Assembly: GCA_016165875.1 (NCBI GenBank)
Contig: JABBOT010000034.1
Span: 2,912,799-2,976,798, forward strand
Direction: 5' to 3'
Length of the DNA: 64,000 bases
From: Acanthopleura granulata
Taxonomy: Eukaryota; Mollusca; Polyplacophora; Chitonida; Chitonidae
Below, in pieces: positions 2,928 to 64,000 of this stretch. The position numbers were made by a program, and so were the translations under genes. Under the pieces are notes generated by a model. The model saw nothing but the letters and a program-made list of their open reading frames with translations, searched no databases and was not told the DNA's origin. Every line of letters begins with the position of its first letter. Within the stretch, counting starts at the first letter, position 1.

Positions 2928-3194
2928 GAAGGTAGGGGCTCAGTCGGTAAGCGTGCTAGCGCAGGGCAATGACCTAGTAGCCTCCAACGAATGCGATCGA
3001 TGTGAGTTCAAGTGCAGCTCATGCTGCCCTCTTCTTCGGCCGTACGTGGAAGGGTCTGCCAGCAACCTGCGGATGGTCTGGTTTCCCCGAGTTGTACCCG
3101 GTTTTCTCCCATCATAAAGCCGGCCGCTGTCGTATAAGTGAAATATTCTAGAATACGACGTAAAACACCATTGAAATAAATAAATAAATGAACA
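2928..3194 (+). mobile_element. Full-length tRNA-derived SINE, V-SINE/RUDI-like
   Basis: One of two near-complete copies in the window. The tRNA-like head has a box A (gctcagtcggtaag) and a box B (gtgagttcaagt). The body follows: cggccgtacgtgg, aagggtctgccagcaacctg, ggtttccccgag and ggttttctccca. The 3' block is gtataagtgaaatattct, a diverged acgacgtaaaacacca, then an (aaat)n tail. Order and spacing match a Pol III-transcribed SINE with a conserved central domain. The family name comes from recalled resemblance to molluscan RUDI V-SINEs and was not checked by search. Confidence 0.85.
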
Positions 3195-4782: not shown

Positions 4783-6232
4783 ATGTGGAATCCTTGGTGT
4801 TTTTCCTGCTGGGTATCCCCAGGTTCAGGCATCGCCCTTGTTGGCACTCCGTGGTGGGTGGGGAACACGTGGGGTGAATCCCAAATTATTTATTATGAAT
4901 CCCTAAATCTTTCACAAATTGTTTCTAATTTGCGATCGTCTTCTCCGCCAATTTCAGGGGCTGATAAAAAGAAACAGCTGGAGGCTTTATCAGATCCTCT
5001 AGACATAGGACAGGAAAGTTGGCCGGCTTTTATTGTTCTCTCAACAAAGAGTGAACAAAAGCCGGCCTCTAAAATACACCCTTTTCTTTTGACTTGAGGG
5101 CTTTGGAGGGTGCAGCAGGTACTTTAAAAAATGTTAAAAAGCTGCGATCCGGAGACATTCTAATCGAATGTTTCCGAAAACAAAAATTTACTATCATTGA
5201 ATAAAATTTCCGATATATCTGTTTTTACATCCCCTCACAATACCCTGAACAGTTAACAGGGAATAATACGTGACAGGGATGGGGATATCTTCGACCTATC
5301 TGAAGAAGAAATCTCTACAGAATTAAAACCACACGGTGTTGTCAGAGTGAAGCGTTTCACAACAAAAAAGCTGGCAACATCCTCAAATTAAACACATATC
5401 TGATAACCTTTAATACCACCTCTCTACCATCAAATATCTACATTGGCCCGTATAGGGTTAAAGTGGACTTATACATACCTAACCAACACGATGTTTTACT
5501 TTGCCAAAAAATTGGTCATGGCAAAGGCCAATGTAAAAATAAACTGGTTTGTTTCAGATGCGGCAATGAAGGTCATGATGGTTTTGACTGCAGCAGCACA
5601 ATCAAGTGCTGCAATTGCGGCCGAGATCACATGGCCTCCTCTAAGGACTGTCCTCTTTTCATTAAAAAAAACAAATAATCACTTTAAAAACTAAAAACAA
5701 CATTTCCTATCAGGACGCCCGCAAATTGGCCTCACTTTCGAGGACGCCACCGCAGACTTCATTTGCCAATGTAGTCAAGCGAGCTGCAACATCTGTTGCA
5801 ACTCAAACTTCCTTGACTTGGCCCATTGGAAACGACAAACCTAGTTCAGCTCAACCTGTCCGGAACTCCTGCTCAACCCAGACTATCACAGCACAAGAAA
5901 TAAAACCAGTAAAGAATACAGAAAAAAATGTCATACCTGAACCTCAGCCCTCTAAAAATGATAATGACAAAAACAAATCTAATAACAAACTTCAAAGTGA
6001 TGTCAAAACCAGTAAACCGAATGGCCCTACAGAACGTCTGTCTAAGGCCACAAGAGATCCTGTCCAAACATTTAACAGGTTTGGATCGTTGGAGGACGTT
6101 GTCCCTTTAACATCAGATGCGGATGTGATGGATACATCACCCGCCCCAGGGAGATCTTCCAGCCGATCTCCAAGGAAGGGTCGTCCTCGATCCAAACACA
6201 AAGACAAATCTCCTATACGCCTTCCTCCGTAA
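4783..6232 (+). pseudogene. LINE ORF1 (gag-like RNA-binding protein), frameshifted
   Basis: The reading frame opens at ATG 4783 (MWNPWCFSCWV). It then breaks near 5097, is readable again from about 5230 (GDIFDLSEEEIS, later VKRFTTKK and VDLYIPNQHDVLLC), and contains three zinc knuckles at about 5505-5660: CQKIGHGKGQC, CFRCGNEGHDGFDC and CCNCGRDHMASSKDC. Another shift follows in the A-run at about 5667. A Ser/Lys/Pro-rich C-terminal part (5726-6229) ends with TAA at 6230-6232. This is the usual ORF1 layout of I-group LINEs: RRM-like part, CCHC knuckles, basic tail. The protein would coat element RNA in the transposition particle. At least two frame disruptions make it non-functional. Confidence 0.85.
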
Positions 6233-9200
6233 TGTCTACATACGACAAAGTTATACAGTGGAATTGTCGAGGTCTTAAGGTTATTTTTTTTGAAATAACA
6301 CAGCTGGTCCAATCATTAAATCCTATTTCCCTTTGCCTTCAGGAAACTCACCTGAAGACATCTGACAAAGATAAAATAACTCTGAAAAATTATTCACTTG
6401 ATAGTATATTTTGTCACGAAGAAGAGCGAGCTGCAGGCGGCTGATCTATCTTCATAAATAACAATATTATCCACAGTCCTGTTGCTCTGGATACAGAGCA
6501 TCAGGATGTGGCAGTTCGTCTTTCATTGTCTAAGGCAGTCACTTTGTGTTCGGTCTATGTTCCTCCGAACACTTCTTTGTCAGCTTTCCAGTTACATAAT
6601 TTGAAAAAAACAATTACCTACACCGTTCATAATAATGGGCGATTTTAATTCCCATAACCCCTTATGGGGAAGTAACAACATAAATAATAAGGGCAAGGTA
6701 GTAGAAGATTTTTTAACCAAGGAGGAACTGTGTTATTTCAATGATGGTTCCAATACTCATTTACATGCGGGTAATGGGATTTATTCTGCTATCGATCTCA
6801 CTATCACCGATCCATCACTTCTCCCGGATTTTTCTTGTAGAGTGCATGAGGATCTTTGTGGTAGTGACCATTTTCATATTATCCCAGAGCATCTCACTTC
6901 TAATTCTTTAGAACGTGTAGCTAGGTGGAAGTTCGATAAAGCAGATTGGATGGCATTTGAGATGTTCTGTGAGGCTGATATCACGCCACACACTCTCAAT
7001 GCAGCAGATGACCATATATTTAAATTGAATGAGCTTACATTACTAGCTGCAGATAGAACTATCCCTAAGACCTCGACCAGTCCAAAATCCACAAGTAAAC
7101 CCTGGTAGGACAATGACTGTCGTAAAGCCAAAAAGAACCGTAAAAGGGCTGAACGCAAATTCAATCGTTGCCCTACTGATAATAATTTAAACCAGGTTCG
7201 TATTCTTGGAGCTAAGGCTAACCGATTACTTAAGTCCAAGAGACGATCTTGTTGGCGGAACTTCGTTTCAGGCATTACGTCCAAAACACCTATGCGTAAG
7301 GTCTGGAATATGGTTCAGAAACTTAAGGGCAAAAATAATAAAGCAAAAGTCCAGCACTTGAAAGATGGAGATAACAAACTAACTTCTCCATCCGATATAG
7401 CTAATAAATTAGCGGAATCAATTTCTAAAAAAATCTTCTTCTGAGAATTATACTTCACAGTTTCAGCATATCAAAAACCAGGAGGAGAAAATGAAGTTGC
7501 CCTTTTCTTCTAAAAACTTAGAAGATTATAATCGTCCTTTTAATGTCGATGAACTAAAAACTGCATTGAGAAAGGCACATGATACTGCATGTGGTCCTGA
7601 TGACGTATATTATAAATTTCTGAACCATTTACCACCTGAACCACTTGAGACTCTCTTGGACTTATTGAACGATATTTGGATAACCGGTAATTTTCCACCC
7701 TCATGGAGGGAGGCATGTATTATCCCGGTTTCCAAACCGGGTAAGGATCATACTGATCCAAATAATTACCGTCCCATAGTTCTTACCACTTGCGTCTGTA
7801 AGACTAGGGAAGCGGCTGATAAATGATAGACTTGTTTGGTTTCTCGAAACCAACAAGTTATTATCTAATATCCAATGTGGTTTTCATCAAGGTAGATCCA
7901 CAGTGGATCACCTTGTTCGACTTGAAAGTCTTATTCGCGATGGTTTTATTAATAATGAACATGTGGTGTCAATATTTTTTGACCTTGAAAAGGCTTACGA
8001 CACCACATGGAAATATGGCATTTTAAAAGACCTCTCGGATATGGGCCTTAAAGGCCGATTACCTATATTTATATCCAAATTTTTATCAAATGGTCAGTTC
8101 AAAGTACGGGTGGGGTCCACTCTTTCTGACTCTTATGAGCAAGAGATGGGTGTACCCCAGGGCAGTATCCTTTCACCAACACTGTTCAGGATAAAAATTA
8201 ATAGCTCGGCCCAAACATTCACATCTGGTACCGAGGGTTGTTTATATGTAGATGATTTTCTGATATGCTACCGGGCGAAAATATGAATAACATCGAGCGG
8301 TAACTGCGGCTTTGTCTCAGTAAGATCGAGAAATGGGCAGTTACCAATGGTTTTAGATTTTCTGCGTCTAAAACCGTCGGTATGCATTTCTGTAATAAAC
8401 GGAAACTTCATCTAGACCTTGAGCTTAAATTTTGTGGTGAACCAGTGAAGATTGTTGGGGAAAATAAATTTTTAGGGGTTATATTCGATAGTAAACTATC
8501 TTTTATACCTCACTTAAAAACGCTTAAAGTTAAATGTATAAAGGCTCTCGATATAATTAAGGTCGTGTCTAGCACCGATTGGGGTGCTGACCGATCTGTT
8601 TTACTTAATTTCTATCGTTCTCTGGTGAGGCCTAAATTGGACTATGGGTCCATCATTTATGGTTCCACTAGGAAATCATATTTTAAAATGTTGGATCCGA
8701 TCCATCACCAAGGTCTGAGGCTCAGCCTTGGTGCCTTTAGAACCTCACCAGTAGAGAGTTTATACGTGGAAGCCAATGAGCCATCTTTACATAACCGACG
8801 TATTAAACTCAGCCTTCAATATGCAACAAAGCTTAAAGCTCACCCAACAAACCCTGCCTACGACTGTGTTTTCAATCCATCATATGTAGATAAATATACT
8901 AAATGTCCTAACAAGATCAATCCGTTTGGTCTTCGTATACGGGACCATGTTGTGGAAGCTAACATCAAGGTAGAGGAGATAGCTCCGGTATCTTTTCGGG
9001 AGTCTCCTCCTTGGCTTCTTCCACAACCTAAACTAATATTTGCTCTACGTCAACATAATAATTGAATAATTGAATACAAATCCTCTTATAATTCAGCAAG
9101 CTTTTGCTGAAATTAAGGCTAATTATCCAAATTATAAATTTATATACACTGACGGGTCGAAGGATGGGGGCAGGGTTGCGGCTGCGGCTGTCTTAGTACA

Positions 9201-9932
9201 GCTGGTCTCTTCTCTTCGTCTTTCGTCTTCATCGTTTAACTTTTCTGCAGAAGCCAGGGCTATACTCCTGACCTTATCATATGTTTCATATCAGATGTCA
9301 CGACAATGATATACAGTGACTCGCTCTCCTGCCTTTTGGCAATGCAGAATAATAAATTTAAAAACTCGCTTATTCTGCAAATTTTGGCCATACATAGAAA
9401 ATTGATTAAAAGAGGCAAAGATATTATATTCTGTTGGATACCAAGCCATGTTGGTATCCATGGAAACACGGTCGTGGACTGGGAGACAAAGGCTGCCCTA
9501 AATAAATCCATATCAAAAGTTAAAATCCCGTATACTGACTTTAAATCTAATATTCTTAAGTATATTTGTCGCCTTTGGCAGGATGAATGGGACGTGCAGG
9601 TGTGTAATAAACTGCACGCTATTCACCCCGTCATTGGCCATAACTCTTATACACTGGGTATGTCTCGTAGAGACCAAGTGGTTTTAACAAGATGCCGTGT
9701 TGGGCATTCTCGTCTAACACACAATTTTATCCTGGATGGGAGCAGTGCTCCCGAGTGTGTTGGATGTGGTGCTGAATACGGCATCAAACATATCCTGCTT
9801 GACTGTGTGGACTTTGCCCATGTGCGGCAAAGATTCTACAGAGTAAACTGTATATATGATTTGTTTGACAGCATCGCTGGCGACGCTGTCATAAAATATT
9901 TGAAGGCCGTTGGCCTTTATCATAAAATATAA
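6232..9932 (+). pseudogene. LINE ORF2 (endonuclease-RT-RNase H), broken
   Basis: The ATG at 6232 overlaps the ORF1 stop as TAATG, a layout suited to termination-reinitiation. Endonuclease motifs: QWNCRGL, LQETHL, MGDFNSHNP (6635) and GSDHFHI. RT motifs: KPGKDHTDPNNYRPI, FFDLEKAYDTTW, GVPQGSILSP and YVDD (about 8248). RNase H: YTDGSK (9148), SAEARAI, YSDSLS (9309) and WIPSHVGIHGN (9438), then a tail with RCRVGHSRLTH and CVGCG. Breaks: TGA at 6442-6444, TAG at 7106-7108 where a Trp codon is expected, and frame changes near 6605, 7430, 7810, 8285, 9065 and 9300. The final stop is 9930-9932. Catalytic residues are mostly recognisable, but the protein cannot be made. Confidence 0.9.
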
Positions 9933-13686: not shown

Positions 13687-13832
13687 CAGGGTCTACCAGC
13701 AACCTGCGGATGGTCGTGGGTTTACCCCTGGCTCTGCCCCGTTTCCTCCCACAATAATGCTGGCCGGGGTCGTATAAGTGAAATATTCTTTGGTACGGCG
13801 TAAAACACCAATCAAATAAATAAATAAAATGC
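13687..13832 (+). mobile_element. SINE, V-SINE/RUDI-like, 5' truncated
   Basis: Begins within the central domain (gggtctaccagcaacctgcg) and continues through the cccgtttcctcccac-like and gtataagtgaaatattct blocks to acggcgtaaaacaccaatc and an (aaat)n tail. The tRNA head is missing. Confidence 0.85.
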
Positions 13833-16316
13833 TCACAGATGTGTATACTTGTAGCCCACTTATTTCTCTTCTCTCCAGCATATGTCATCTTCGTGGCTAC
13901 CGAACTACGGTGATTAAGTCCAGAATGTACATGCAATAAGTATATACCATGCACAGGTACAATATTGAGTTAAGTTCGGTTTAATAAAGAAAAACCAAAA
14001 AGTCAAAAACAGTGAGGTTTTGCAATTAGAATGCTTCAGGATCGAACTCCGCTGTTGCTCAAGATAGTAATTGTGCATTGCTATGTAACTTGTGAAAATG
14101 ATAAGTAACGTTTCATTTCACTTGTCCCGCCAAAACACACGGCTTCTCAATATTCTCTGTTGTTCGTGTATACTATAAATAAAGTTTTAGTCAACATGTT
14201 ATAGTATCTGGCATGAATAACTGTTCTCAAGCATTTACGTCTTGGCGTCACTTGATGGTAAAGTGGAATTTATGGGTCATTATATGTTGTGCATTATATC
14301 AATGCAAATGGATTGAATGAATGAATGAATGTCAGCAGCATCTCAGTCAAATCATAGCAAATAGAAGACATATCCTTAATGTGCCAATATAGTTTTATGT
14401 TCTTATTCTGTTCTTGTGATATCTGAAACACATATATATTCAGAAAACATGTTGTTATCAGTACGGGTATAATTATTATTCACAAGCTTAATATGATGTA
14501 AGTTTGATTCTAACTGTTTATGTAAAAAAATGCATAAGTAGGTGCAGTTTAGCCTTCCCATGGCTTAGGCAGAATTAGGCATGGCGTTAGTGTCTTAATT
14601 TACTAGAAGTCATAGGTCTCTAAACCGCTCACGATGATGTGTTTTAGTCCCATTTAACAAACAAGAACATAAAAACAACGCAAATGAATCATATCTCGGA
14701 GAAACTTCGTTCAACAGATGAATCCTTATTTATGCTTGCATGCACCCACTCACATAATATTTTCAGTCCTTATTAATTAAGACACATCCAGTCTTCATAA
14801 AACAGTGTACATGTTCACTAGTTTTGTGTTAACTCAACTGCTTCAGTTGATAAATACATGTAGGATTAACCAGGAATGCAGTAGCTCGTTTTTCTGCAAT
14901 GGAAGGCGGCACATTTTTTTAATTTTTTTAGTTTAAAGCAGGACCCCGTTTCACTGATGATGTTATTTTTAAGTCGTAACTCATGTCCATTTAAAACGAC
15001 ATACAATTGTTCCATGAAACAATATCACCTATGCTTTACTGTGGACAGAGTAACGAAACTTAGACCTTGCGACTTAACATTAAGATTGGCGACTTAAGAC
15101 TTAGTGATAATGAAAAACTGAAGGCGTCACAACTTATGTTGTTTATATATCCACTAGTTATACACCCTCATGCTGAGAACTTTTTTATTTTTCTTTTTGA
15201 AGAAACGTTGGCATGAAGGTCGAAAACTAGTCGATATATGAACATCACATCACACCATACGCGGTGAGGCCTTGAGCTTTTCCCACCTACAGATATCAGT
15301 CTCAAGCATTATGCAATGAATTGAAGCTTATCACTGAAATTAGGCCCAGAACCCTGAGCCATTGTTACGTCAGAATTTAATTCTAACACATCTGAGACAC
15401 CCGTACTACATAAAGAATAGAGACGTCAACTGCATATACCATCGCGTATGCGCAGTGAATTTTTTCGCGTGACAAGCAAATAAACCCCATAGCGTTCACC
15501 GGGATTGTTCCAAGCGCAGACATTGATGGGGAGGATATGTTAGTGCTGCACATGTCGTCTGCCCGTATGAAAAAAACATTGACGTCACCAACTGCCCAAG
15601 GCCCAGTTTTTTCACGAAGAGTTAACTTTAACCCATTGACAAACACATATGATTTATTTTTTCAACATCAGTATAGCTTAAATACAGAAAAAAATGTCTT
15701 TCATGTTAGAAAAGTCGTGAATGATATAAAATAAGTGAGGAGTAATTGATCTATCTCACCTTCATCCATGGGTTAAAATTTAGTTAAAGCCAATTTAACG
15801 CAGGGTTAACTTCAACACCGCTTTGAACAACGCAAATTAAACGTAAGTTGGCAGATTTAAACGAGGGTTGATCGCTAACAACCTCTAACAATTCTACCTC
15901 TCGGATAACTGCGACCTGCGAATGAAGGGATTTGAACTTGTATACGTGGTACATTACTTTTATCATTCATATACTTTATATAACGGCGAAATATCAGGAT
16001 TTCTTTCAGCGATGAAAGTGCTACCTCGTTTAGTTTACGGATATCACTTTTGTAGATTCAGACGTTATGGCGTCGAAAAAAGATACATTTTGTTTCATGA
16101 CGTTCCATTCTGAGCTCAGCGGGATGATGTCACAATATACAAAGACATGGAACCTGTGGTTGTTTTCCTTGGACTCTCCCTTGGCAAGACCAAGGCAAGA
16201 GAAATGTATTCAAAATAACGGAGTGGATGGGTATCAACCTGAAAAATAGGAAAGGAATAAAAACTGAAAATAAATGTAAAATATATAAGATCGGATGATG
16301 TGCTAAAACAGAAACC

Positions 16317-16554
16317 GATACATTGTAACACTGTAAACGTTTCGCTACTATTAAAAAATAATGGCTTCATTCACTGTGTTTAAGCTGTGATAATTGCAGT
16401 AAAAAAAGGAAGTCTCCAGTATTTTTGAACTCGGCCGCCGAGTTTAAAAACACTGGAAAACTTTCTTGTTTACTGCAGTTATCACAGCACATATGCAGTG
16501 AATGAAGCCATTACTTTTAATAGTAGCGCAACGTTTACAACGTTACAATGTATC
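16317..16554. mobile_element. Palindromic MITE-like element, copy 1
   Basis: A near-perfect inverted repeat of about 238 bases with arms of almost 120. It starts gatacattgtaaca, reads inward through atggcttcattcactg and taagctgtgataa-tgcagt, turns around at actcggc-c-gccgagt (centre about 16436), and leaves in mirror order to gttacaatgtatc. There is no coding capacity. The same element in duplication copy 2 (60207-60445) shows it inserted before the duplication. Any transcript through it would fold into a long hairpin. Confidence 0.85.
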
Positions 16555-17240
16555 AGACTCTATTGTAACATAGTGCTGTCTTTTATGTGACGTCACCCTG
16601 AAGAACCTGGAAAGGAACATCTGATGTCAATAAAATGAGGTCAAGGACTAGCTGCCGGGCTCTTGATTGGACTGCATTCCTTTTGTTATCGCCAGAGAAG
16701 AAATCACATACTTGTGAAAACTTCGAGCTGAATGCGTAATCAATAATAATGACTACACGACACGTATGTAGTCACCCGAAACGGGCCGACGTGAGCTTTG
16801 AATAGTGACTTAACTTCCGCAAGAATCATATGATCTTTGTAAAGGTGCATGTATATACATAGGTTACCTACTGTACACTGTTTAATTTGAGGCGGTATAA
16901 AGGCGCTTCCTCACAGTGAATACCTAAAACCAGTTTTGTGTCCGGGAAAGACTAGGGTGACAAAGCAGATATCTTGTGCGGTAGCCCGTGGGTTCAGCAT
17001 ATAGTTCTTAACGTACAATTCGTGTATGCGGACAGACAAATTTGAGTACATTAAGAACAGACAGCGCACGTGCAAGTTTTCTGTAAACTGGGAGATAGGC
17101 ATATGTAAATACCCTTGTTTCTTCTGTGGTACATGTTTTGCTGTCCTTTCCATCAATCCCAGCTACACATTTGATTAGCTGATACATTCTTACGTTGAAG
17201 CACCGGACTAAAAACAAGGCACTGATCCCTGAGCTGCAAG

Positions 17241-19161
17241 ATGGCCACTGGTTTATTCTTCTTCAGTACAATTTGCTTGATTATCATCGCTCAGTTCACC
17301 CTTGCTGCAACTCGCAGGAACCTAACGGTGGATCCAGAAGGTAGAGTATGATATTATTTTTTATCTGCTTGAGGTATGATATCGTGTTTCTTTTTGTCAT
17401 TAAAGAAGCATTGGCATCAACCTAAAAACTCGACACACTTTTAAGTCGACCTCGACTTTTGGCAGGACTTTTTAGAGGTGAAAGCTCCAAAAGTTTCAAA
17501 ATACGACATTGACATTTTTTCCCTATCACATAAGGCAAATAATGTATGATGCTAAACATTTGCTATATCTGGTCTATCTTTAAAAGCTGGAAATTAATTT
17601 AAGCTTCTTTCAAAAGTAACATTCATATTTAACGCGGTGACATTTTCTCGGCTTTCAGGAATGTGAGAAATAGGCTGTAGCTCACACCTCTCACACAAGG
17701 CAGCCACCAGTTCGTAAAAATCTGACGTGCAAATAATGCAGTTTCAGCGCCACGTGATGTATTCGATAAAGCGCATTGAAGATGAATACTGCATTTTCCT
17801 GTGAATGATACACAATTAAAAGTTCACTCACATGATTGTTTGATGTTCAATCAAGGCCTCTTCGACCTGTTCATTTCTTTAAATCCATGGTGTTGATTTC
17901 TGTGTGATTTCTGTCGTCGCCTTTCGGAATGTTGCCAATTTTTTTAGTCGAGAGATGTCGTGATATCCGGGTCACGTATGCTATCGAACAGTGACATGCT
18001 TATCTTTATATATGCACAATTTTCCTATACCGTGACACCGAGGAATATTACATTTTTTTCCTGTAGGATGATTCCTGTACAAGCCCTTGAAAACATGCCC
18101 ACACACCATAATTAATTTCCCACTGACTTATATGTTAACGTTTGGCCTCACAGCAACGCCCCAAAATATGCAAGCCCTAAACCCCCCAGGCCTCATAGTG
18201 CTTGTCCCCTCATGAAACACCAGTCAACTTCCTGACAGGGCATGACCGATAAAATTTCTGGCAAATTTGCCAACAGCTGACACGGGTCAAATTCACCCAG
18301 TCAGGGGTCAGCGAACGCTGATTTATCCTACTTCTGCCTAGTGTGAATCCGCCTTCATTTCCTGAAGAACACACAAATTTATATCTGGAATGAAACTTTG
18401 AAGCCTGTTCTACAAAATGATTCCACCCATCAAGCAGAAAAAATTAAAAAGGGTAACCGAGGGGAGCAAAAGAAAATATCTGTAAAAAGAGAAAGGGACT
18501 GGCTTCTCTATCCGGAAGCACTAATTGAGGCGTGCAGCCACATGGGCTACCTTCAGTGTTTATATTCAAAGCGCCCTCTACCGGGTGAACACCTGAACTA
18601 ACGTCGTATTCTGGCATTGAATAACGATAACAATACCTTTGTGCGGTAAAGAAAACGCATTTAAAATGTTCATTTTAACATACACTTTAACACGTAAAAA
18701 GACCATCGCGTTTAATGGGCATTATACTTCAGACAAGCGAGTTTAATAAATATACGCATAGATTTAAGTATTAAACAGAAAGTGCCTAAGACATGTATAT
18801 AGGCCTATACTATACTGCTGTATGCTCAATTCTAACAGAGGCCTGCACGATAAAGTGACCAACGTCCAACGCGTTTAGTGTGTGATTAAACTTCAAACAA
18901 GCGTGCTTCATAAATATACACATGTATTAAGTAAATCACATCACTCAATAAAGGTATCAACTTTTCTATATTTTTACAGATCATCCACGTAGACTAAACA
19001 TAGATAAGTGGCCAGTAACCGAATCAATTCCGCCCATGGTTGAGCCGCCTCGAATGTTGTGCTCATTTTGTTCTTGGTGGAGATGTCCAGGGAGAGGCTG
19101 TAAGATTACGTGCTCACCCTGTCGCTGGAGGTTATGGCGCGATTTATTTGTATTTTTCTAA
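17241..19161 (+). CDS. Secreted six-cysteine cationic peptide precursor, copy 1 (two exons)
   Basis: Exon 1 is 17241-17340 and exon 2 is 18980-19161; the intron (1639 bp, gtagag...tttttacag) splits an Asp codon after its first base. Product 93 aa. Residues 1-23 form a signal peptide: MATG, then a hydrophobic core FFFSTICLIIIAQF, then LAA. Next comes a pro-region with a glycosylation sequon (NLT, 27-29) and PRR. The C-terminal domain has Cys 61, 64, 69, 74, 78 and 81 in the pattern C-x2-C-x4-C-x4-C-x3-C-x2-C, with WW (66-67), Trp 83 and 86, and many Arg. The layout (signal, pro-part, disulfide-rich cationic Trp/Arg-rich end) is that of secreted antimicrobial or venom-like peptides. I do not recognise the family and function is inferred only. 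A TATA-like gtataaagg lies at 16893-16901, suggesting a roughly 300-base leader. A near-identical framework in copy 2 strongly supports both exons. Confidence 0.8.
18660..18955 (+). repeat. Two ~160-bp monomers in the peptide-gene intron, copy 1
   Basis: Two imperfect units 156 bases apart, marked by gaccatcgcgttta at about 18701 and gaccaacgtccaacgcgttta at 18857. Each is followed by ttcaaacaagcg-like sequence and ataaatatacacat. The duplicate intron at 62.55-62.96 kb holds three units. Roughly 160-bp monomers are typical cores of bivalve pearl/BIV160-type elements; that link is a suggestion only. Confidence 0.6.
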
Positions 19162-19203
19162 TATGTGTGTACCCTGTCGCTGGTGGATATGGTATGATTT
19201 ACA
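19117..19203 (+). repeat. 55-bp shifted duplication of the CRW motif at the peptide-gene stop
   Basis: ccctgtcgctgg at 19117 (coding PCRW) recurs at 19172, just past the stop at 19159-19161. The match runs for about 30 bases (ggN-tatgg-NNN-gattta). The second copy is in another frame and would read PCRWWIWYDLQ in a 38-codon ORF beginning ATG at 19163. The same arrangement exists in copy 2. Confidence 0.6.
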
Positions 19204-19516
19204 GGTACACAAATTATTGGAGACTATACATTCTCTCCTTTTGCTTGTACAGATAAACAACCGGATATGTATAAGATAATACACAAAGTTGTGGTAGAGT
19301 AATTCACGTAGCTGTCAACAGTGTGAAATATTTGTACATGCATATGCGCAGTGTAAAATGCTAAATGCGATAAACCTATATATCTGTTCGCTCCGCAATG
19401 TGCCTACATGCACATGCTCTGTAAAACAACTGTGTACAAATTTGCACATCCACAATGCATGTGTATTAGTGGTATACAAATTGTGCATTGCTGATACACA
19501 CTTCGTTGTGAAAAGG

Positions 19517-19640
19517 TGCGTCAGCAACATGCGGATGGGCGTGGGGATCCCTCGGGCTATTCCGCCCGCTATGATGCTGGCCGCCTCCGTATAAGTGAAA
19601 TATTCTTGAATACGGCGTAAAACACCAATCAAATCAATAG
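19517..19640 (+). mobile_element. SINE, V-SINE/RUDI-like, 5' truncated (inside duplication A copy 1)
   Basis: gtcagcaacatgcggatgg, a diverged centre, gtataagtgaaatattcttg, acggcgtaaaacaccaatc and a short degenerate tail. The counterpart at 63590-63712 shows insertion before the duplication. Confidence 0.8.
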
Positions 19641-19975
19641 ATTAATTACGGGACATATGTTTTGAGTTTATTGAATATTTGGCCTGCCTTTACAATGCAC
19701 AAATTGAAATATTACTTATGTACAATGCAGGTGTTCTGGAATTTATTTGGTCTTGATCACCTTATGATCTGGAAATAGCTACTTCCAACATTACTGTATC
19801 CTTTATCAATGGTGAATTCAGCAAATTTGTAAACTTATAATTCATCCCATCAAGTAAAGAATTTTGGGCTTCTGTATATAAACTGCTTTGGAGTAGTCAT
19901 TTTTCTGAGGTTTTTGCCTATGGTCTTCCAAATGTATGTCATACAGCGCCCAATGCCACCGAGTGTCTCCTATGG

Positions 19976-20817
19976 CTGAGGCTGTAAGAAGAGAGTTAAT
20001 TGTTAATTGTAAATAAGTTGTCAGGCGATATAGATCTACTGTCACATATAAAAGATTGTGTTAGCTTCAAAACAATGAACATGCTCTATTACTCACTTAT
20101 ATATCCTTATCTCCTGTACGGTAATATTGTTCGGGGAAATACTTTCTCCATCCATTTGAAGCCCATTGCTACTGTTCAAAAAGGGCTATACGGTTATTAA
20201 ATTTTTCTGTTCATTATCACAGTTCACCTGTGTTAGCCAAACAGTTTGTGATGCTTACTCTTTCTGAAATAAATGATATCATACTCTTGCACATGTGTCA
20301 AAAGTTGATGTGTAAACATTTTGAATTACAAGAAATATTTATAGGGTATTTTACAAGGGTTTCAAATGTGCATTATTTTCAGACCACAGATAACAATTAA
20401 ATTTGTATAAACCATTCCATAGAACTTCTCCTCATGGTTAACAGATGAAAGGTCCTTGTATCTGGAACAAGCTACCCATTGAACTGAAACTAAATTCATT
20501 TACGTCCACTTTTAAATGTAGACTTAAGAAGTATTATTTAACCAGGAGTTGCACGCTGATTGTCACAACTATAAGCTCGAACTAACCCAACTAATGTTCT
20601 TTGTGTTAATCAAGCGTTTGTTGTACATATAGATAAGAATACAAGATGCTTTAGTGTCTATTTCGCCAAGTATGTACCATAACCGATCAAGTCATTCCTT
20701 GGGCGTGATATCATGGATAACTCGAGCCCTGTGAGGTTTCCCCTCACATTGTTGGCCAGTAGTGAATAGGGTCCATGTAATACCTTATTGGTGGTGAACA
20801 AATCTGAATCTGAATCG
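19976..20817 (+). mobile_element. Degenerate 3' end of a second non-LTR retrotransposon
   Basis: Reads as the post-RT region of a LINE. About 20000-20190: SGDIDLLSHIKDCV, MLYYSLIYPYLLYGNIVRGNT and HLKPIATVQK. About 20444-20545: KGPCIWNKLPIEL, then FTSTFKCRLKKYYL. These resemble the common LYYSLIYPHLxYGxxVWGNT and LWNxLPxxLKxxxSLxxFKxxLKxYL patterns of LINE polyproteins (clade not decided). It ends in aaatctgaatctgaatc (about 20801-20817), a typical short-repeat LINE tail. Frame breaks and 5' truncation make it a relic. Confidence 0.75.
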
Positions 20818-21036
20818 GGTCGGTTCCTTTGGTTTCTTCTGTCTGTTATATTCATCCATAAATCTAATAGCCGTTAGTGAAATACTGTAAATCACCTTAC
20901 AGTTCGTCCATAATGACAACGTTTGATCATTCGGCCCGATTTTGGAAGTGGACATTTTGTCAAAAACGGATGTTTGTGTAAGACAGAATGATACACTGCA
21001 ATAAATGATATAAGACTCCTTATCAGCAGGTATATT

Positions 21037-22405
21037 TTACCAGTTTATTTCCCTCTGAAAATACTCATACCCATTATTCAGGAGACGAACTATGTTGTCA
21101 TCCACAGGCGTCAAGAGTGGACTGGAGACACAGACAACGCCATTGCACACTGAAGGAATAAATAAAAGGGCATGTTGTTAAGAAAACTTCCTTTATAAAT
21201 GAAATCACAAGATGGAGACTACATAAGAGCATCCAGTGTCTCCGACAATCTTATTCATGTACTCGAGTAACAAAATCAGGATCTATTTCTCGGACTATAT
21301 GTACACACGTACTGATATATTCTGAAAGGCCTTTGACTTGACGAGTGCCGAGGCATACAAAGGAGGAAATAGATAATATGTGACAGAGAAAGGAAAGTTG
21401 GGCCTTGAAAAGCTCCCTATTTTCCATATTTTGTGCACCGCCTAAAAATAACACCACGTCATCGGAAAATCAGCAACAGTTATAGAAACTGAACACCTGT
21501 GCAGGAATACGTGATACACGTGACTTTAATGCTTATCTATTGCGACAATGGGATTGAATGGGATCCTTCCTCGTTCGTACCTGGGTTTGTTGATTGGATC
21601 GGATGTACATGCATAAATATACATATATAAATATTACTGAAAGAGGACAAAAGCTGTCAGAATCGTTGACATGCTGTCTAACAAATGTAAACCGCCAAAC
21701 CCGCTATTGGTGAATCGTCATTCATTAAAGTTAAAATAACCCACATCACTTCTGACCCATAACTAATGCATGTGTGTGAACTGTTGGCCCAGCCTCAGCA
21801 GATCGGCACTTGACTAGTGAGACCGGAAGCCGGAGTACAGACTTCTTTCTAGTGGCTGCGCATTTAAATCATGCAGATTCAGCAAGGTCATATGTATCGT
21901 CTGACAGATTGGTTGATTCATTGACTGGCTGGTTTGAACTCTGGAAAGTCCATTGTGGTTGTCAACTGGTACAAAAAGGTTTGTTTTGACGTTTAATATC
22001 AAACCTGTTTTACAAGTGATTGATTGGGATTGATTGAGAATTATTTGAATTCGCGAACGAGTTTAAATTCCCAGACACACGCTTCGGAATGTACTTACGT
22101 CACAAATCACGTCACAATACTTGACCTTGGGCGACGTCATTTCAACGAAGGCGTTCTCAAAGGTGTTTGTCCCACTTGTTAATCAAATTCATGAACACAG
22201 ACAACAATAAAGTCACGCGAATAAATAAGCCACTCGGCCGTGGCACATGCAAAGAAACTGAAAGGAAAACTATTACGAAATTCGCGAAACAAGATGGAAA
22301 ATCTACCTTTTTGCTTCACCCTCTGCTGTGAGTGGAAAGTTGTACTCCCAGAGCCTTGCGCACATGTGGTCGTAGTAGTAAGCAACGGGAGTTCGATAGG
22401 ATTGC
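21037..22405 (-). CDS. Candidate 3' exons of an unidentified spliced gene
   Basis: Four coding-like pieces with good splice signals on the minus strand. Exon a, 22405 down to 22320 or 22307, after tttatacag: 28-32 codons including YYYDHMCARLWEYNF, with donor gtgaag or gtagat. Exon b, 22174-22099: 25 codons, ending VKYCDVICD before gtaagt. Exon c, 21441-21313: 129 nt before gtacgt. Exon d, 21149-21037, after attccttcag: 36 codons ending NGYEYFQREINW and TAA. Two splice chains keep phase: a(22320)-c-d, all phase 1, giving the long C-terminus; or a(22307)-b-c-d, ending after 12 codons of d. I do not recognise the protein. The evidence is splice consistency and protein-like composition, so this is tentative. 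Confidence 0.3.
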
Positions 22406-22633: not shown

Positions 22634-22803
22634 ATCCGCCCGTACGTGGGAAGGTCTGCCAGCAACCTTCGGGAGGCCGTGGGTTTCCCCCAGGCTCTGC
22701 CCGGTTTCCTCCCAAAATAATGCTGGCCGCCGTTGTGTAAGTGAAGTATTCTTGAGTACGGCGAAAAATACCAATGAAATAAAAATAAATATATAAATAA
22801 TAG
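22634..22803 (+). mobile_element. SINE, V-SINE/RUDI-like, head-less
   Basis: Starts cccgtacgtgggaaggtctg, continues through ggtttcccccaggctctgcc, ggtttcctccca, gctggccgccgt and taagtgaagtattcttgag to acggcgaaaaataccaatg and an A/T-rich tail. Confidence 0.85.
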
Positions 22804-26182: not shown

Positions 26183-27228
26183 GAGCGCATCAATAGAGGA
26201 ACAGATTTCATGAAGGGAACAGCTTGACGAGTCCTCTGTCATCTTACACACATATCGCCAATGTTAGCATTTATCATTTAATAACAAAGACATTGTGAAT
26301 ACCACCGGTATTTGCGGCTCGGCGGTAATGAACAGCTCTGTGACAAGGAACCTTAGGGCGGTGAAAAACGATGCTATCTCCGTTATACCGATAGTGCAGT
26401 GCGAGCTATACATCATCTGCTGATACTGACAAATCACTGGCCATCAGCTTTGTAACATGCAGTGTTTGCTTTGTTATATGAAATAAGACGGCGTGGATTT
26501 AGATGCGATATTTCGATTTCTGCAACAGAAGGTATTTACACAGAGAGGAGGCCGAGTCAGAAGAAAGATGACGTCTGTAACGTAATACAAGGGGGCAAGT
26601 CAGGCTGCGACCAAACATACATTCCATTTGTCCCGTGTCAGGCGTCACTGGATGTAAAATGCTGCATATATATTAGCATTTCTAAGTGAATATATACATG
26701 AAAAGAGATCAGCAAATCGTGGCCTTTCTATTCCAGCCAGTCTTTCTAAAATCAGTTATAAACTCGTGCCGTTTGGCTATTCCAGTACAGACAGGCATAA
26801 CCTACTTTCGGTCACCTCGCGGAGTTAGATGTCATGTCGTCAGGTCTGACGTAATCAGCCACCCTGCATTACTCGTGTCATGTGGTAATCCCCTGGCTGG
26901 AAAGTACGTGTAATTGCTCTTACCAGTCTAGGCACCCGTCATTTCCGGGTGGTCAGGGTCTGTGGGTAAAAGAGACAAGCACCAAGCGTCCAATCAGTCA
27001 GTCAAATGTATCCTTATTTTTGGCTAGATCGTGTTGTAGCTTTGCCGGTCATGTCAAGAACCAGTTCCAATACTTTAGGTTGACTGTTTCAGAATGTAAC
27101 TGATGATCCTACACTCACACACTGTCTACAGTGTGGCATGTGATCGCTACATCGGTGCATGTATGTATGTACGTTCGGGTTTTACTCAACAATTTTTTCA
27201 GTTATACGGTGACGAGGAGTAGTAAGAA
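26183..27228. other. Unassigned region
   Basis: No gene recognised. Open stretches are short and unsupported. A diverged SINE 3' end in reverse orientation may lie at about 27176-27225 (gttttactcaacaattttttcag and acggtgacg). Confidence 0.25.
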
Positions 27229-27264
27229 TATATATATATATATATATATATATGTGATCTATCT

Positions 27265-27300
<36 letters not shown>

Positions 27301-27358
27301 TATATATATATATATATATATAGATATATATATATATATAGATATAGATATATAGATA
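27229..27358. repeat. (TA)n microsatellite with GATA interruptions
   Basis: About 130 bases of (TA)n broken by gtgatctatctgg and by regular ga insertions. It directly abuts the 3' end of the reverse-oriented second-family SINE and probably grew from that SINE's tail, since tgatctatctgg echoes tgatgtatctgg at 27366. Open frames reading YIYIYI here are artefacts. Confidence 0.9.
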
Positions 27359-27680
27359 TGTGTGTGATGTATCTGGTTGAAGCAGGGCGAATCCATGCGG
27401 CTCAAGGGCTGCCGCCACTGGAACATCATACAGTAGACACCAGGTGTGACACTCCATTCAGTCACATTACACTGACACCAGGCCGACTAGTCCCGCTTCC
27501 TTGCTCTAACTTCTCAGTGGTAAGTGCCAACCGAGGCAGCAACAAGTTTTTGTATGACCTATACCCAGGTCTGATCGCGGACATCCCGACTCGCAGGACG
27601 GATGATCGCACCACAAGGCCACCAAAGCAATCGCCACGACGGCGTAATAATGTGGTGCTGATCACACTGGTGAACAAAAG
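27359..27680 (-). mobile_element. Second SINE family, near full length
   Basis: Read in reverse: a tRNA-like head with box A (tggtggccttgtggt) and box B (gtccgcgatcagacc), then ggtcatac, acttgttgctgcctcggttgg, agttagagcaagg, ggcctggtgtcagtgtaatg and tgactgaat, down to gcagcccttgagccgc, and an (ata)-like tail joining the TA microsatellite. The body matches 38310-38600 (ggtcataccaaagac; cggcccggtgtcagtataatg). This is a tRNA-derived SINE distinct from the V-SINE-like family; no name assigned. Confidence 0.75.
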
Positions 27681-28144: not shown

Positions 28145-28302
28145 TTATTTATTTATTTGATTGGTGTTTTACGCCGTACTCAAGAATATTTCACTTATAC
28201 GACGGCGGCCAGCATTATGGTGGGAAGAAACCGGGCAGAGCCCGGGGGCAACCCCCGACCATCCGCAGTTTGCTGGCAGATCTTCCCATATACGGCCGGA
28301 GA
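28145..28302 (-). mobile_element. SINE, V-SINE/RUDI-like, head-less
   Basis: Reverse orientation: ttatttatttgattggtg, ttttacgccgtactcaagaa, tatttcacttatacgacggc, ggccagcattatggtggg, aaccgggcagagcccggggg, accatccgcagtttgctggc, tacggccgg. Close to the apparent family consensus, so a younger copy. Confidence 0.9.
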
Positions 28303-57276: not shown

Positions 57277-58150
57277 CTGAGAAAAAAAGGGAGACAAAAA
57301 CAGAGGCGATGTCAGCACAGGCTAATATATGCAAAACTTATGGGACGCGTGGAGCAAGCTCGTTTTCTAGCTTGATTTTAATAGAGGCCAAAATACCTGC
57401 AATGTGGCTATACACAAGAAAATCCATGGAAACCAAGAACCAATGAGAATCAAGTTTTTCACAAAACTTAGTAAGTTACTCTTTTCATAACTGTTCTCAT
57501 AAAAAAAGGGTGACTAGGTTATAGCGCCATAATGCAATGTGATTTACGAAAAAAATGATGAGAACTTGATTTACGAAGTTTTGTACAAGTAGGCCCTGTA
57601 AGCCAAACTTACGCTTATACTTCAGGTATCGATTTACAGGTTGACTACGTTTTATGTGAGTAGGAATATACACAGAAAAGACCTGTAATCAAAATGACTT
57701 GCCTATGCCTACTTTTTATGTATAAACACATGTAAATACATTTGAGAATACAGTGATCTACATTCAACAACATCTAGAAATAAAAGCTACTGCATACTGG
57801 CCGCCTCATTTTTACTTAAACTATCTTACTTCTAGTCATCTCTGTTCATTTTATGGAGGATTATGCTTGCTTTCAGCATACTTCTAGAACACAGGTGTCT
57901 GCATTCAAGTCACAGTACAAAGACTCTGGGTTCCATGATCAGGTGTACTTGGTCTATTCTCAAATTAATTTCCACACGTCTTTCTTTCAATTTAAAACAT
58001 GTAGCAGTGGAAAACCAACAGCAATTGTGTTTGTTAAACACCAGAGCTCAAGGCCCAACTCAACTCGACAACTTGTGGATGCGAAACAACAACGCCACTC
58101 AACTAGAGTTGTACGTGTATGCTGGTCAGCTTAAAGGCATATGTTCTACG
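57277..58150. other. Start of the putative long last intron of the LANCL gene
   Basis: No coding exon recognised on either strand; AT-rich and repeat-poor. It ends at the left boundary of duplication A copy 2. Confidence 0.35.
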
Positions 58151-60206
58151 TCGGCAGCATCTCAGTCAAATCACAGCAAATAAAAGACATATCCTTAATA
58201 TGCTAGTATATATTTATGTTCTTATTCTGTTGTTGTGATATCTGAAACACATATGTATATTCAGAAAACATGTTGTTATCAGTACGGGTATAATTATTAT
58301 TCACAAGCTTAATCTGATGTAAGTTTGATTCTAACTGTTTATGTAAAAAAAATGCATAAGTGGGTGCCTGGTCCCACGGATCAGGCAGAATTAGGCATGA
58401 AGTGAATGTTAATGATGTTAGTCGCAGTTTACTAGACGTCATAGGTCTCTAAACCGCTCACGATGATGTGTTTTAGTCCCATTTAACAAACAAGAACATG
58501 AAAACGACGCAAATGAATCATATCTCGGGGAGTCTTCGCTCAACAGATGAATCCTGATTTATGCTTGCATGCACCCACTCACATAATATTTTCAGTCCTT
58601 ACTAACGTTGACACATCCAGTCTCCTTAAAACAGATGTACATGTTCACTAGTTTCGTGTTAACTCAACTGCTTCAGTTGATAAATACATGTAGAATTAAC
58701 CGGGAATGCAGTAGCTCGTTTTTCTACAATCGAAGGCGGCACATTTTTTAATCCTGTGTGGCGGGGCTTGTTTAAAGCAGGACCCCGTTTCACTAATGAT
58801 CTTATTTTTAAGTCGTAACTCATGTCCTATTTTAAAACTTACGACATACGATTGTTTCACGAAACAATATCAACTATGCTTTACTGTGGACAAAGTAACG
58901 AAACTTAGGCCTTGCGACTTAACATTAAGATTGGCGACTTAAGACTTAATAATAATGAAAAACTGAAGGCGTCACCACTTATGTTGAGCCATTGTTACGT
59001 CAGAATTTATTCTAACTAATATGAGACATCCGTACTACTTAAAGAATAGAGACGTCAACTGCATATACCATCGCGTATGCGCAGTGAATTTTTTTCGGGT
59101 GACAAGCGAATAAACGCCATAGCGTTCACCGGGATTGTTCCAAGCGCAGACATTGAAGGGGAGGATATGTTAGTGCAGCACATGCCGTCACCCCGTATGA
59201 AAAAAACATTGACCTGACCAACTGCCCAAAGCCCAGTTTTTCGATGAAGAGTTAACCTTAAGCCAGGGACAAACATATATGATTTATTTTTCCAAAATCA
59301 CTATAGCTTAAATACAAAAAAAAGAAATTTTTATTTCATGTTACAAAAGTCGTGAATGATATAAAATAAGTGAGGAGTAAGTGATATATCCCATCTTCAT
59401 CCATGGGTTAAAATTTAGTTAGGGCCAATTCAACGCAGGGTTAACTTCCACACCGCTATGATTAACGCAAATTTAACGTAAGTTGGCAGATTTAAACCAG
59501 GGTTGATCGCTAACACCCTTTTGAACAACCGGGCCACATATGTACGTGAAGATGTAAAATTTGAGAGTACGAAGCGGGAGTGTAGCATTCCGTAGGAAGT
59601 GACGGCGTTACGAACTTATTTCTACGAGCAGTCTTAAGAATAAAGAAATGTAGACAATTCTACCTCGCGGATAATTGCGACTTGCGTGCAAATATACATG
59701 TTACTAAGACAGGGAAGCTTTCAAACAACATCGAGTGCTTGTGTAACGCAACACACAGGCTTGTACGTTTACCTCCCGGGGTAATATTCTGCCATGCTGT
59801 TTACTTCTGCCAAGGAAGGGATTTGAACTTGTTTATGTGGTAGATTACTTTTATTTTTCATATATTTTATATAGCGGCGAAATACCAGGATTTCTTTCAG
59901 CGATGAACGTGCTACCTCGTTTAGTTTACAGATATCACTTTTGTAGATTCAGACGTCATGGCGTCGAAAAAAGATACATTTTGTTTCATGACGTTCCATT
60001 CTGAGCTCAGCGGGATGATGTCACAAAATACAAAGACATGGAACCTGTGGTTGTTTTCCATGGACCCTCCCTTGGCAAGATCAAGGCAAGAGAAATGTAT
60101 TCAAAATAAAGGAGTGGATGGGTATCAACCTGAAAAACAGGAAAAGAATAAAAACTGAAAATAAATGTAAAATACATTAGATCGGGTGATGTGTTAGAAT
60201 AGAAAC

Positions 60207-60445
60207 TGATACATTGTAACACTGTAAACCTTGCGCTACTATTAAAAAATAATGGCTTCATTCACTGTGTTTAAGCTGTGATAACTGCAGTAAAAAAGGA
60301 AGTGTTCAGTATTTTTGAACTCGCCCGCCGAATTTAAAAACACTGGACACTTTCTTGTTTACTGTAGTTATCACAGCACATATGCGGGGAATGAAGCCAT
60401 TACTTTTTAATAGTAGAGCACCGTTTACAGCGTTACAATGTATCA
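60207..60445. mobile_element. Palindromic MITE-like element, copy 2
   Basis: Same element as 16317-16554: outer ends tgatacattgtaac / gttacaatgtatca, with the centre near aactcgcccgccgaattt, where two point changes weaken the turn-around. Confidence 0.85.
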
Positions 60446-61126
60446 GACTCTATTGTAACATAGTGCTGTCTTTCATGTGGCGTCACCCTGAAGAACCTGG
60501 AAAGGAACATCTGATGTCAATAAAATGAGGTCAAGGACTTGCTGCCGAGCTCTTGATTGGACTGCATTCCTTTTGTTATTGCCAGAGAAGAAATCACATA
60601 CTTGTGAAAACTTCGAGCTGAATGCGTAATCAATAATAATGACTACACGACACGTAGTCACCCGAAACGGGCCGACGTGAGGTTTGAATAGTGACTTAAC
60701 TTCCGCAAGAGTCATATGATCTTTGTAAAGGTGCATGTATACACATGGGTTACCGACTGCACACTGTTTACTTTGAGACGGTATACACGCGCTGCCTCAC
60801 AGTGTATACCTAAAACCAGTTTTGTGTCTGGGAGAGACTAGGGTGACAAGGTAGCTATCTTGTGTGGCAGTCCCTGGGTTCAGCGCATAGTTCTTAACGA
60901 ACAATTCATGTATGCGGCCAGACAAATTTGACTGCAGTAAGAACAGAGAGCGCACGTGCGAGTTTTCTATAAACTGGGAGATAGGCACATGTAAATACCC
61001 TTGTTTCTTCTGTGGTACATGTTTTGCTGTCTTTTCCAACAATCACAGCTACACATTTGATTAGCTGATACATCCGTACGTTGAAGTGCCGGACTAAACA
61101 CAACGCACTGATCCTTGAGTTGCAAG

Positions 61127-63203
61127 ATGGCGACGAGAGTATTCTTCTTCAGTACTATTATTATTATCATCGTTCAGTTCACTCTAAGTGCAAGGGTGAA
61201 TCCAGAAGGTAGAGTATGATATTATTTTTTATCTGCTTGAGGTATGATATCGTGTTTCTTTTTGCCATTAAAGAAACATTCGCATCAACCTCAAAACTTG
61301 ACACACTTTTAAGTCGACCTCGACTTTTTGCAGGAGTTTTTAGAGGTGAGAGCTCCAAAAGTTTCAAAACACGACATTGACTTTTTTGTCCAGTAGACGT
61401 TCATTTTTTCTCTATCACATAAGGCAAATAATGTATAGTTCTAAACATCTGCTACTTCTGATCTATCTTTAAAAGCTGGAAATGAAGTTAAGCTTCTTTC
61501 AAAAGTAACATTCATATTTAACGCGGTGACATATTCTCGGCTTTCAGGAATGGGAGAAATACGCTGTACCTCACACCTCTCACACAAGGCAGCCACCAGT
61601 TCGTGAAAATCTGATGTGCAAAAAATGCAGTTTCAGCGCCACGTGATGTATTCGTTAAAGCGCATTGAATATGAATAATGCACTTTCTTGTGTGGATGAT
61701 ACACAATTAAAAGTTCACTGACATGATTATTTGACGTTCAATCAAGACCTCTTCGCCCTGTTAATTTCTCTATATCCATGGTGTGGATTTCTGTGTGATT
61801 TCTGTCGTCGCCTTTCGGAAAGTAGCCATTTTTAGTCGAGAGATGTTGTGATATCCGGGTCACGTATGCTACCGAAGAGTGACATGCTTATTTCTTATAT
61901 ATGCACAATTTTCCTATACCGTGATACAGAGGAATATTACATTTTTTCCTGTAGGATGATTCCTATACGAGCCCTTGAAAACATGGCCACACACCACAAT
62001 TAATTTCCCACTGACTTATATGTTAACGTTTGGCCTCACAGCAACGCCCCAAAATATGCAAGCCCTAAACACTCCAGGCCTCAGAGTGCTTGTTCCCTCA
62101 TAAAATTCCAGTTAAATTCCTGACAGGGCATGGCCAATAAAATTTCTCGCAAATTGCCAGGCAGCTCACACGGGTCAAACTCACCCAGTCAGGGGTCAGC
62201 GAACGCTGATTTATCCTACTTCTGCCTAGTGTGAATCCGCCTTCATTTCCTGAAGAACACACAAATTTATGTCTGGAATGAAACTTTGAAGCCTGTTCTA
62301 CAAAATAATTCCATCCCACAAGCAGAAAAAATTAAAAAGGGTAGCCCAAAGGAGCAAAAGAAAATACCTGTAAAAAGAGAAAAGGGCTGGCTTCCCTACC
62401 CGGAAGCATTAATTGTGGCGTGTAGCCACATGGGCTACCTTCAGAGTTTACATTCAAAGCGCCTGCTACCGGGTAAACCCGTGAACTAACATCGTATTCT
62501 GGCATGGAGTAACGATAGCAACACCTTTGTGCGGTAAACAAAACGCATTTATAATCTTCATTTTAACATACATTGTAAAAAGACCAACGTCCATCGCGTT
62601 TAATGGGCATTATACTTTAGACAAGCGAGTTTAATAAATATACTCATAGATTTAAGTATTAAACAGAAAGTGTCTAAGGCATGTATATAGGCCTATACTA
62701 TACTGCTATATGCTCAATTCTAACAGAGGCCTGCATTGTAAAATAACCAACGTCCAACGCGTTTAAAGGGTATTAAACTTCAAACAAGCTTGTTTAACAA
62801 ATGTAGAGGTAGATTTAAGTGTTAAACAAAAAGTGTCTAAGGCATGTATACAGGCCTATACTACAACGCTATTGCATCCATTTTAACATACACTGTAAAA
62901 TGACCAACGTCCAACTCATTTAATGTGTGATTAAATTTCAAACAAGCGTGCTTCATAAATATACACATATATTAAGTAAATCACATCACTCAATAAAGGT
63001 ATCAACTTTTTTATATTTTTACAGGTCATCCACGTACACTAAACATAGATAACCGGCAAGTACCCAAATTAGTTCTACCCATGATGAGGCCGCAACTGAT
63101 GTTGTGCTCAGTTTGCTCTTGGTGGAGATGTCCAGGGAGAGGCTGTAAGGTTACGTGTGCATCCTGTCGCTGGCGGTTATGGCAGAATTCTTTTGTGCTT
63201 TAG
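61127..63203 (+). CDS. Secreted six-cysteine cationic peptide precursor, copy 2 (two exons)
   Basis: Exons 61127-61208 and 63025-63203; the intron (1816 bp, gtagag...tttttacag) splits a Gly codon after its first base. Product 86 aa. Signal peptide about 1-22: MATRV, core FFFSTIIIIIVQF, then LSA. A pro-region containing HPRTLNIDN follows, then Cys 55, 58, 63, 68, 72 and 75 with the same C-x2-C-x4-C-x4-C-x3-C-x2-C spacing. The core CSWWRCPGRGCK is identical to copy 1, and three Cys/Arg codons in the domain differ only synonymously. Compared with copy 1, exon 1 is 18 nt shorter, the NLT sequon is lost, and the C-terminus after RWRLW differs (QNSFVL). AATAAA lies at 63323-63328; copy 1 has AATACA there. 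The TATA-like box of copy 1 reads tatacac here. Family unknown; a secreted effector is inferred. Confidence 0.8.
62555..62960 (+). repeat. Three ~160-bp monomers in the peptide-gene intron, copy 2
   Basis: accaacgtcc landmarks at about 62583, 62746 and 62903 (spacings about 163 and 157). Units share ttttaacatacactgtaaaa, caaacaag, ataaatata, tttaagt-ttaaac and aagtgtctaaggcatgtata-aggcctatact. One unit more than in copy 1. Confidence 0.65.
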
Positions 63204-63322
63204 GAAAATGTCTGTACCCTGTCGCTGGTGGATATGGTATGATTTACAGGTATACAAATTATTGGAGGCTATACATTCTCTCCTTATCCTTGTACAGACA
63301 AAAATCCGTACATGTATAAAAT

Positions 63323-63328
63323 AATAAA
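63323..63328 (+). promoter_or_regulatory. AATAAA poly(A) signal candidate of peptide gene copy 2
   Basis: 120 bases after the stop at 63201-63203. The aligned position in copy 1 (about 19277) reads AATACA. Confidence 0.4.
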
Positions 63329-63589
63329 CAAACCTGTGGTAGAGTCATTCACGTAGCTGTCAACAGTGCAAAATATTTGTACAAGCCCATGCACAGTGTA
63401 AAATGCTCAATGCGATAAACCTATGTCAGCGAAGTGCAACTTACATGCATATATCTCTTCACTCCGCAATGTGCCTACATGCACCTGCTCTGTAAAACAA
63501 CTGTGTACAAATTTCCACATCCACAATGCATGTGTATTAGTGGTATACAAATTGTGCATTGCTGATACACACTTCATTGTGAAAAGGTG

Positions 63590-63712
63590 CGTCAGCAACA
63601 TGCGCATGGGTGTGGGGAACCGGCGGGTTCTTCCGCCCACTATGATGCTGGCCGCCTTCGTATAAGTGAAATATTCTTGAGTACGTCGTAAAACACCAAT
63701 CAAATCAATAGA
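63590..63712 (+). mobile_element. SINE, V-SINE/RUDI-like (inside duplication A copy 2)
   Basis: Counterpart of 19517-19640: gtcagcaacatgcgcatggg, gctggccgccttc, gtataagtgaaatattcttg, agtacgtcgtaaaacacca. Confidence 0.8.
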
Positions 63713-64000
63713 TTAATTACGGGACATGTGTTTTGAGTTTATTGAATATTTGGTCTGCCTTTACATTGCACAAATTGAAATATTACTTATGCACAATGCT
63801 GGTGTTCTGGAATTTATTTTGTCTTGATCGCCTTATGATGGGGAAATAGCCACTTCCAACATTACTGTATCCTTTATCAACGGTAAATTCAGCAAAATTG
63901 TAAACTGATAATTCATCTCATCAAATAAAGAATTTTGGGTTTCTGTATATAAACTGCTTTGGAGTAGTCATTTTTCTGAGGTTTTTGCCAATAGTCTTCC

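Follow-up and report, generated by a model that had tools for sequence, protein, structure and literature searches.

The analysed window, a stretch of 64,000 nucleotides from the genome of Acanthopleura granulata, contains two candidate two-exon genes, A and B, both on the forward (+) strand. Exon 1 of gene A (17241..17340, 100 nt) encodes a hydrophobic leader and the start of a linker. It is followed by a predicted intron of 1639 nt (17341..18979) and by exon 2 (18980..19161), which encodes the rest of the linker, a six-cysteine core and a tail. The donor site is AAG/GTAGAG, and the acceptor at position 18980 is TTTTTACAG/. Joining 17241-17340 to 18980-19161 across this GT-AG, phase 1 intron produces 93 residues followed by TAA. 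The same join had been suggested in the original prediction, and it is exact to the base, with an open frame and the predicted cysteine spacing. Gene B consists of exon 1 (61127..61208, 82 nt) with the donor AAG/GTAGAG, a predicted intron of 1816 nt (61209..63024) and exon 2 (63025..63203), which is 3 nt shorter than exon 2 of gene A; the joined frame (GT-AG, phase 1) encodes 86 residues and ends with TAG. Genes A and B had been expected to agree in phase, framework and stop codon; they do agree in the first two, but the stop codons are different (TAA and TAG).

In both joined frames the hydrophobic leader and the linker precede a core with the framework C-x2-C-x4-C-x4-C-x3-C-x2-C. The core spans 28 codons, from MLC to RLW at 19054..19137 in gene A and at 63099..63182 in gene B. 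WWRC, PGRGC and RWRLW are common to both predicted peptides, so that the motifs WWR, PGRGC and RWRLW reported earlier are indeed present in each. Each core has a net charge of +5, four tryptophans and six cysteines. The best 15-residue Kyte-Doolittle means of the leaders are 2.41 and 2.43 (A and B, respectively), and the signal peptides of both are predicted from hydrophobicity only. No dibasic site common to the two predicted precursors was found. A six-frame scan of the window with the strict spacing retrieves only A and B, with no matches in the reversed window. With a much looser spacing, A and B are accompanied by two places in the reversed window, and thus only the strict count is telling there. 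A structure prediction from the two-row alignment of A and B exons 2 was uninformative (mean pLDDT 48.8).

The window contains several other features. A single-exon frame of a rhodopsin-type GPCR (310 residues, 40154-41086, + strand) lies between genes A and B; it matches Pfam 7tm_1 (E 1e-30), and its best PDB match is the adenosine receptor A2a (E 7.5e-23). A broken LINE-like retroelement (5304-9932, + strand) comprises frames that by eye resemble a zinc knuckle, an endonuclease, a reverse transcriptase and RNase H. A repeat of about 150 bp, which probably represents a short transposable element, is dispersed in many copies on both strands, its sites including 2944-3189, 13690-13828, 22635-22800, 28145-28300, 48240-48396 and 50595-50752. 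There is also a degenerate AT microsatellite of 65 copies (27228-27359). Neither Rfam nor tRNA scanning found anything in the window.

Genes A and B reside in two arms of one duplication of about 8 kb. The first arm (14331..22394, + strand) carries gene A, and the second one (58150..64000, + strand), which extends outside the window by about 2.6 kb, carries gene B. Since both genes belong to one duplication, their agreement by itself is not independent evidence. Unlike the agreement, the pattern of differences between them is independent evidence. The arms differ at 605 of 7733 aligned bases (7.8%). In exon 2, 36 of 182 bases differ (19.8%), and none of the 1386 overlapping 182-nt windows outside the exons is that diverged, the maximum being 14.8%. 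The divergence of exon 1 is also raised (15/82). Alignment gaps are divisible by three in both coding cases (2/2) and in 8 of the 40 non-coding ones. Within the coding sequence the core is the slowest part (7 of 84 bases changed versus 41 of 174 elsewhere; Fisher P 0.003) and the linker is the fastest one: dN/dS is 0.68 for the entire coding sequence, 0.30 for the core and 1.92 for the linker part of exon 2. In a simulation, 36 random changes in exon 2 retained all six cysteines without creating a stop codon in 0.4% of cases. The synonymous divergence also exceeds that of the intron (13.5 of 57; P 9e-5), and thus selection alone does not explain the A/B pair. One possibility is that the introns of A and B have been homogenised by gene conversion.

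Two more repeats were observed in the duplication. Just past both stop codons there is an out-of-frame second copy of the end of the core (PCRWWIWYDLQ; 19166-19207 and 63217-63255, + strand). In gene A it is 55 nt from the first copy, and over about 40 bases the DNA of A and B is identical. The intron of gene B contains a 163-bp tandem repeat in 2.6 copies (62560-62978), which is the likely source of a 157-nt gap in the alignment with A.

The translated exon 2 of A was searched against the whole genome (606,523,666 bases in 87 contigs; PMC7850002 gives 606.9 Mb in 87 scaffolds for the published assembly), which produced eight matches: A and B themselves, four matches on another scaffold, C6 (E 8e-4 to 0.026), and two matches, on C1 (E 0.95) and C10 (E 6.6), taken as chance. 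The 200-kb stretch 15,020,001-15,220,000 of C6 was then read directly; adding 15,020,000 to the offsets given below yields scaffold positions. It contains a mixed tandem array of relatives of four types, I to IV, with many decayed copies. Types II to IV were missed by the protein search and are known only from reading this stretch, and the family count, being based on the exon-2 search of the genome and on 200 kb of C6, is a lower bound. The array (C6:15020001-15220000) repeats in tandem, its units measuring tens of kb; every unit has exons of types II, I and III on the + strand, and in most of them type IV exons are present on the - strand. In several units a second leader-like exon (MKRFIVKRR...) is located upstream of type II.

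Type I (+ strand) is represented by five exons 1 and five exons 2, the latter lacking Cys3. Homologous exons 1 are located about 4.4-4.5 kb upstream of the four exon-2 matches, and together with their flanks they have 69-71% DNA identity to exon 1 of A over about 200 bp. We do not consider these copies to be working genes. The donor position aligned to that of A is AT in all five copies of exon 1, in none of the four loci examined can the entire exon 1 be joined to the conserved acceptor, and one of them has an in-frame stop codon. Only one locus (L012) allows for a longer join, to a different acceptor. The exons 2 of type I, although probably dead, also differ more than their introns (32 of 750 positions versus 485 of 25,740, these counts being pooled over six non-independent pairs). 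These genes may also contain a middle exon, unseen so far.

Type II (+ strand) consists of six exons 1 and six exons 2, and five of the six have lost the ATG codon. The exception, II_c (offsets 80305 and 82271), is intact and has a phase-1 join; its cysteine part is preceded by QKKR, and the last cysteine spacing is x1 instead of x2. Type III (+ strand) is represented by five exons 2. Four of them lack the full framework and one, at offset 89946 (C6:15109946), has it exactly; no exon 1 for this type was found in the 200 kb. Type IV (- strand) comprises five exons 1 and four joined open frames, IV_a to IV_d, no exon 2 for the fifth exon 1 having been found in the same stretch. The exact framework occurs in IV_a and IV_b together with four extra cysteines, three upstream of it and one in the first loop. 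In IV_c eight residues around Cys3 are missing in the alignment, with loss of framework cysteines, and IV_d has lost most cysteines. CC pairs occur in type IV, but elsewhere in the exon than at Cys5-Cys6.

A, B and several of the C6 copies share their gene structure. Exon 1 of type IV is 100 nt long, ends in phase 1 and has the donor CAG/GTAGAG, the length, the phase and the hexamer GTAGAG being the same as in A; it also shares with exon 1 of type I a stretch of 36 bases with 83% DNA identity. Read by eye, the type I and type III acceptors are in phase 1 too, and for type I a frame test gives the same phase. Clean joins of a leader exon to a terminal cysteine exon in phase 1 are seen in A, B, IV_a to IV_d and II_c, and are absent in type I. 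The exact framework C-x2-C-x4-C-x4-C-x3-C-x2-C is present in A, B, IV_a, IV_b and one type III exon, and is broken in the other C6 copies. A framework absent or broken in relatives had been named in the original prediction as an argument against the family. Breakage is observed in many C6 copies; on the other hand, the framework is exact in IV_a, IV_b and the type III exon.

The framework is found in 200 kb of C6 three times with the strict spacing and not in the reversed sequence or in five mononucleotide shuffles, while the looser spacing matches ten places and none in the reversed sequence. The tblastn matches between the types, such as that of the type III exon to A (E 8e-8), were computed with neither masking nor composition correction, and scores obtained in this way are inflated for cysteine-rich sequences. 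Thus our argument leans more on the framework, gene structure and DNA similarity. Given the scans of reversed and shuffled sequences, the divergence scan of the duplication and the simulations, a chance or non-coding origin is unlikely.

Exon 2 is the most diverged part in all six pairs of type IV copies (20.5 to 41.9%). The intron differs by 5.4 to 12.1%, exon 1 by 3 to 11%, the upstream region by 1.7 to 9.0% and the downstream region by 2.8 to 12.3%. The exon-2 lengths (179, 176, 167 and 167) are equal modulo 3. For exon 2 of the intact copies IV_a and IV_b, dN is 0.30 and dS is 0.074, giving a ratio of 4.0 (P 0.012 in a one-sided Fisher test with rounded counts); dS is close to the intron divergence of this pair, 0.084. 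All ten cysteines are retained in this pair, the outcome of 27 of 20,000 simulations in which an equal number of changes was placed at random, only 6 of which were also free of stop codons. The remaining five pairs, each with a damaged copy, have dN/dS between 0.63 and 1.91, the lower value being that of exon 2 in IV_c and IV_d. The cores of types II, III and IV are strongly different from one another.

No relatives were found in a collection of 5.8 billion proteins; this and the collections named below give only a weak test of the family's absence outside this genome. In Pfam, A and B matched no family at E values of 10 or less, IV_a and II_c matched none, and IV_b had one unrelated match below the cut-off (E 0.077). 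Four PDB matches (E 0.079 and above) were taken as chance. A pattern search of IMG/VR viral contigs gave 57 matches, none of them relatives. The strings WWRCPGRGC, CSWWRC and three spellings of the cysteine spacing were not found in the searched literature, nor was a published account of the family found in the titles and abstracts searched. The proposed two-exon precursor and undescribed family are supported, and the family extends beyond the window, with members on another scaffold that share this framework and intron phase.

Several known peptide families share features with the predicted products. The molluscan mytilins and myticins are also cysteine-rich and cationic, but have eight cysteines, compared to six in A and B. 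The beta-defensin array ends in adjacent Cys5-Cys6, whereas the core of A and B contains no adjacent cysteines. The cationic six-cysteine C-terminal part of secreted beta- and big defensins is described as encoded after a phase I intron (PMC7203481), which is analogous to the phase 1 joins predicted here. However, the big-defensin precursors of the same account include a hydrophobic N-terminal domain as well as a prodomain that contains a dibasic site (PMC7203481), whereas A and B lack both a shared dibasic site and a Pfam match. A big defensin transcript is listed for Chiton olivaceus (PMC7203481). CRP-I of Mytilus is reported as a large tandem family of hypervariable secreted cationic six-cysteine peptides with decayed copies (PMC10138031), and is thus similar to the A/B/C6 family in the six cysteines, tandem copies, hypervariability and decayed members. 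On the other hand, CRP-I has a knottin-type array, C-C-CC-C-C, whose loops vary, and its signal and pro-parts are conserved (PMC10138031); in A and B the core lacks CC, and it is the linker that evolves fastest. Type IV, with a slow leader exon and a fast cysteine exon, is nearer to the CRP-I mode.

The same contrast between exons could also be produced by other kinds of secreted peptides. The toxin families of cone snails and snakes combine a conserved leader exon and intron with a fast mature exon, as in type IV, and the peptides might be a defensive or offensive secretion, such as a mucus or gland toxin, that acts on predators, parasites or competitors through one of their receptors or channels. 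Acceleration of coding regions in snake venom phospholipases, as cited in PMC3745941, would agree with that. However, neither PDB nor Pfam searches linked the A/B family to a solved toxin or a known toxin family. Moreover, no venom organ is known in chitons, and we consider a toxin rather unlikely. The rapid divergence of exons relative to introns and the tandem duplication are also compatible with reproductive or pheromone-like peptides. Gamete recognition, a seminal function or a water-borne signal, with diversification driven by sexual selection or conflict, would fit these features, but the cationic Trp/Arg core is less typical of such peptides, and this is an unlikely explanation.

A precursor of a peptide hormone or neuropeptide, with the core as the signal and a drifting linker, would be consistent with the slow core and fast linker of A and B and with the KKR site of II_c. 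However, the strong differences between the cores of types II, III and IV are not what is expected of a receptor ligand, and A and B share no dibasic site, making this variant quite improbable. Finally, A and B themselves might be dying copies or accidental open frames, as could be suspected from the numerous decayed copies on C6 and from the synonymous divergence exceeding that of the intron. However, both genes have open frames, undamaged splice sites and the full set of six cysteines, the coding gaps are all multiples of three, and six-cysteine, stop-free outcomes are rare in the simulation; we regard this explanation as very improbable.

The most economical account of these sequence data would be that the genes form a family of secreted cysteine-rich effectors, which evolves by gene birth and death, with diversifying selection acting on the terminal exon. 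On balance, we lean towards A and B being paralogous two-exon genes of a diversified chiton family that likely encode secreted six-cysteine, Trp/Arg-rich peptides, with host defence as their most likely function. The more specific proposal of a hypervariable effector arsenal restricted to the chiton lineage, in which the leader exon and intron evolve slowly and a new six-cysteine framework is held under diversifying selection and birth and death of genes, is tentative, its chances being nearly balanced. An antimicrobial role of the A and B peptides is plausible, this reading being suggested by charge, Trp/Arg content and hypervariability. The leader would direct secretion, and the linker would then be cut off; the KKR site of II_c would suit a furin-like protease. 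The six cysteines may pair into three disulfides, and the cationic Trp/Arg surface could bind anionic microbial envelopes. A large number of variants would arise through birth and death of genes together with diversifying selection on exon 2.

The family appears to be new as a framework, whereas secreted cysteine-rich effectors under diversification are of a known kind. Judging by the searched literature, immune effectors of chitons have been little studied. Decayed and intact copies occur side by side on C6, so that birth, loss and selection of effectors can be measured there, and the short length of the intact members allows for their synthesis and testing. If the interpretation is true, Polyplacophora would have a host-defence system that has not been described earlier.
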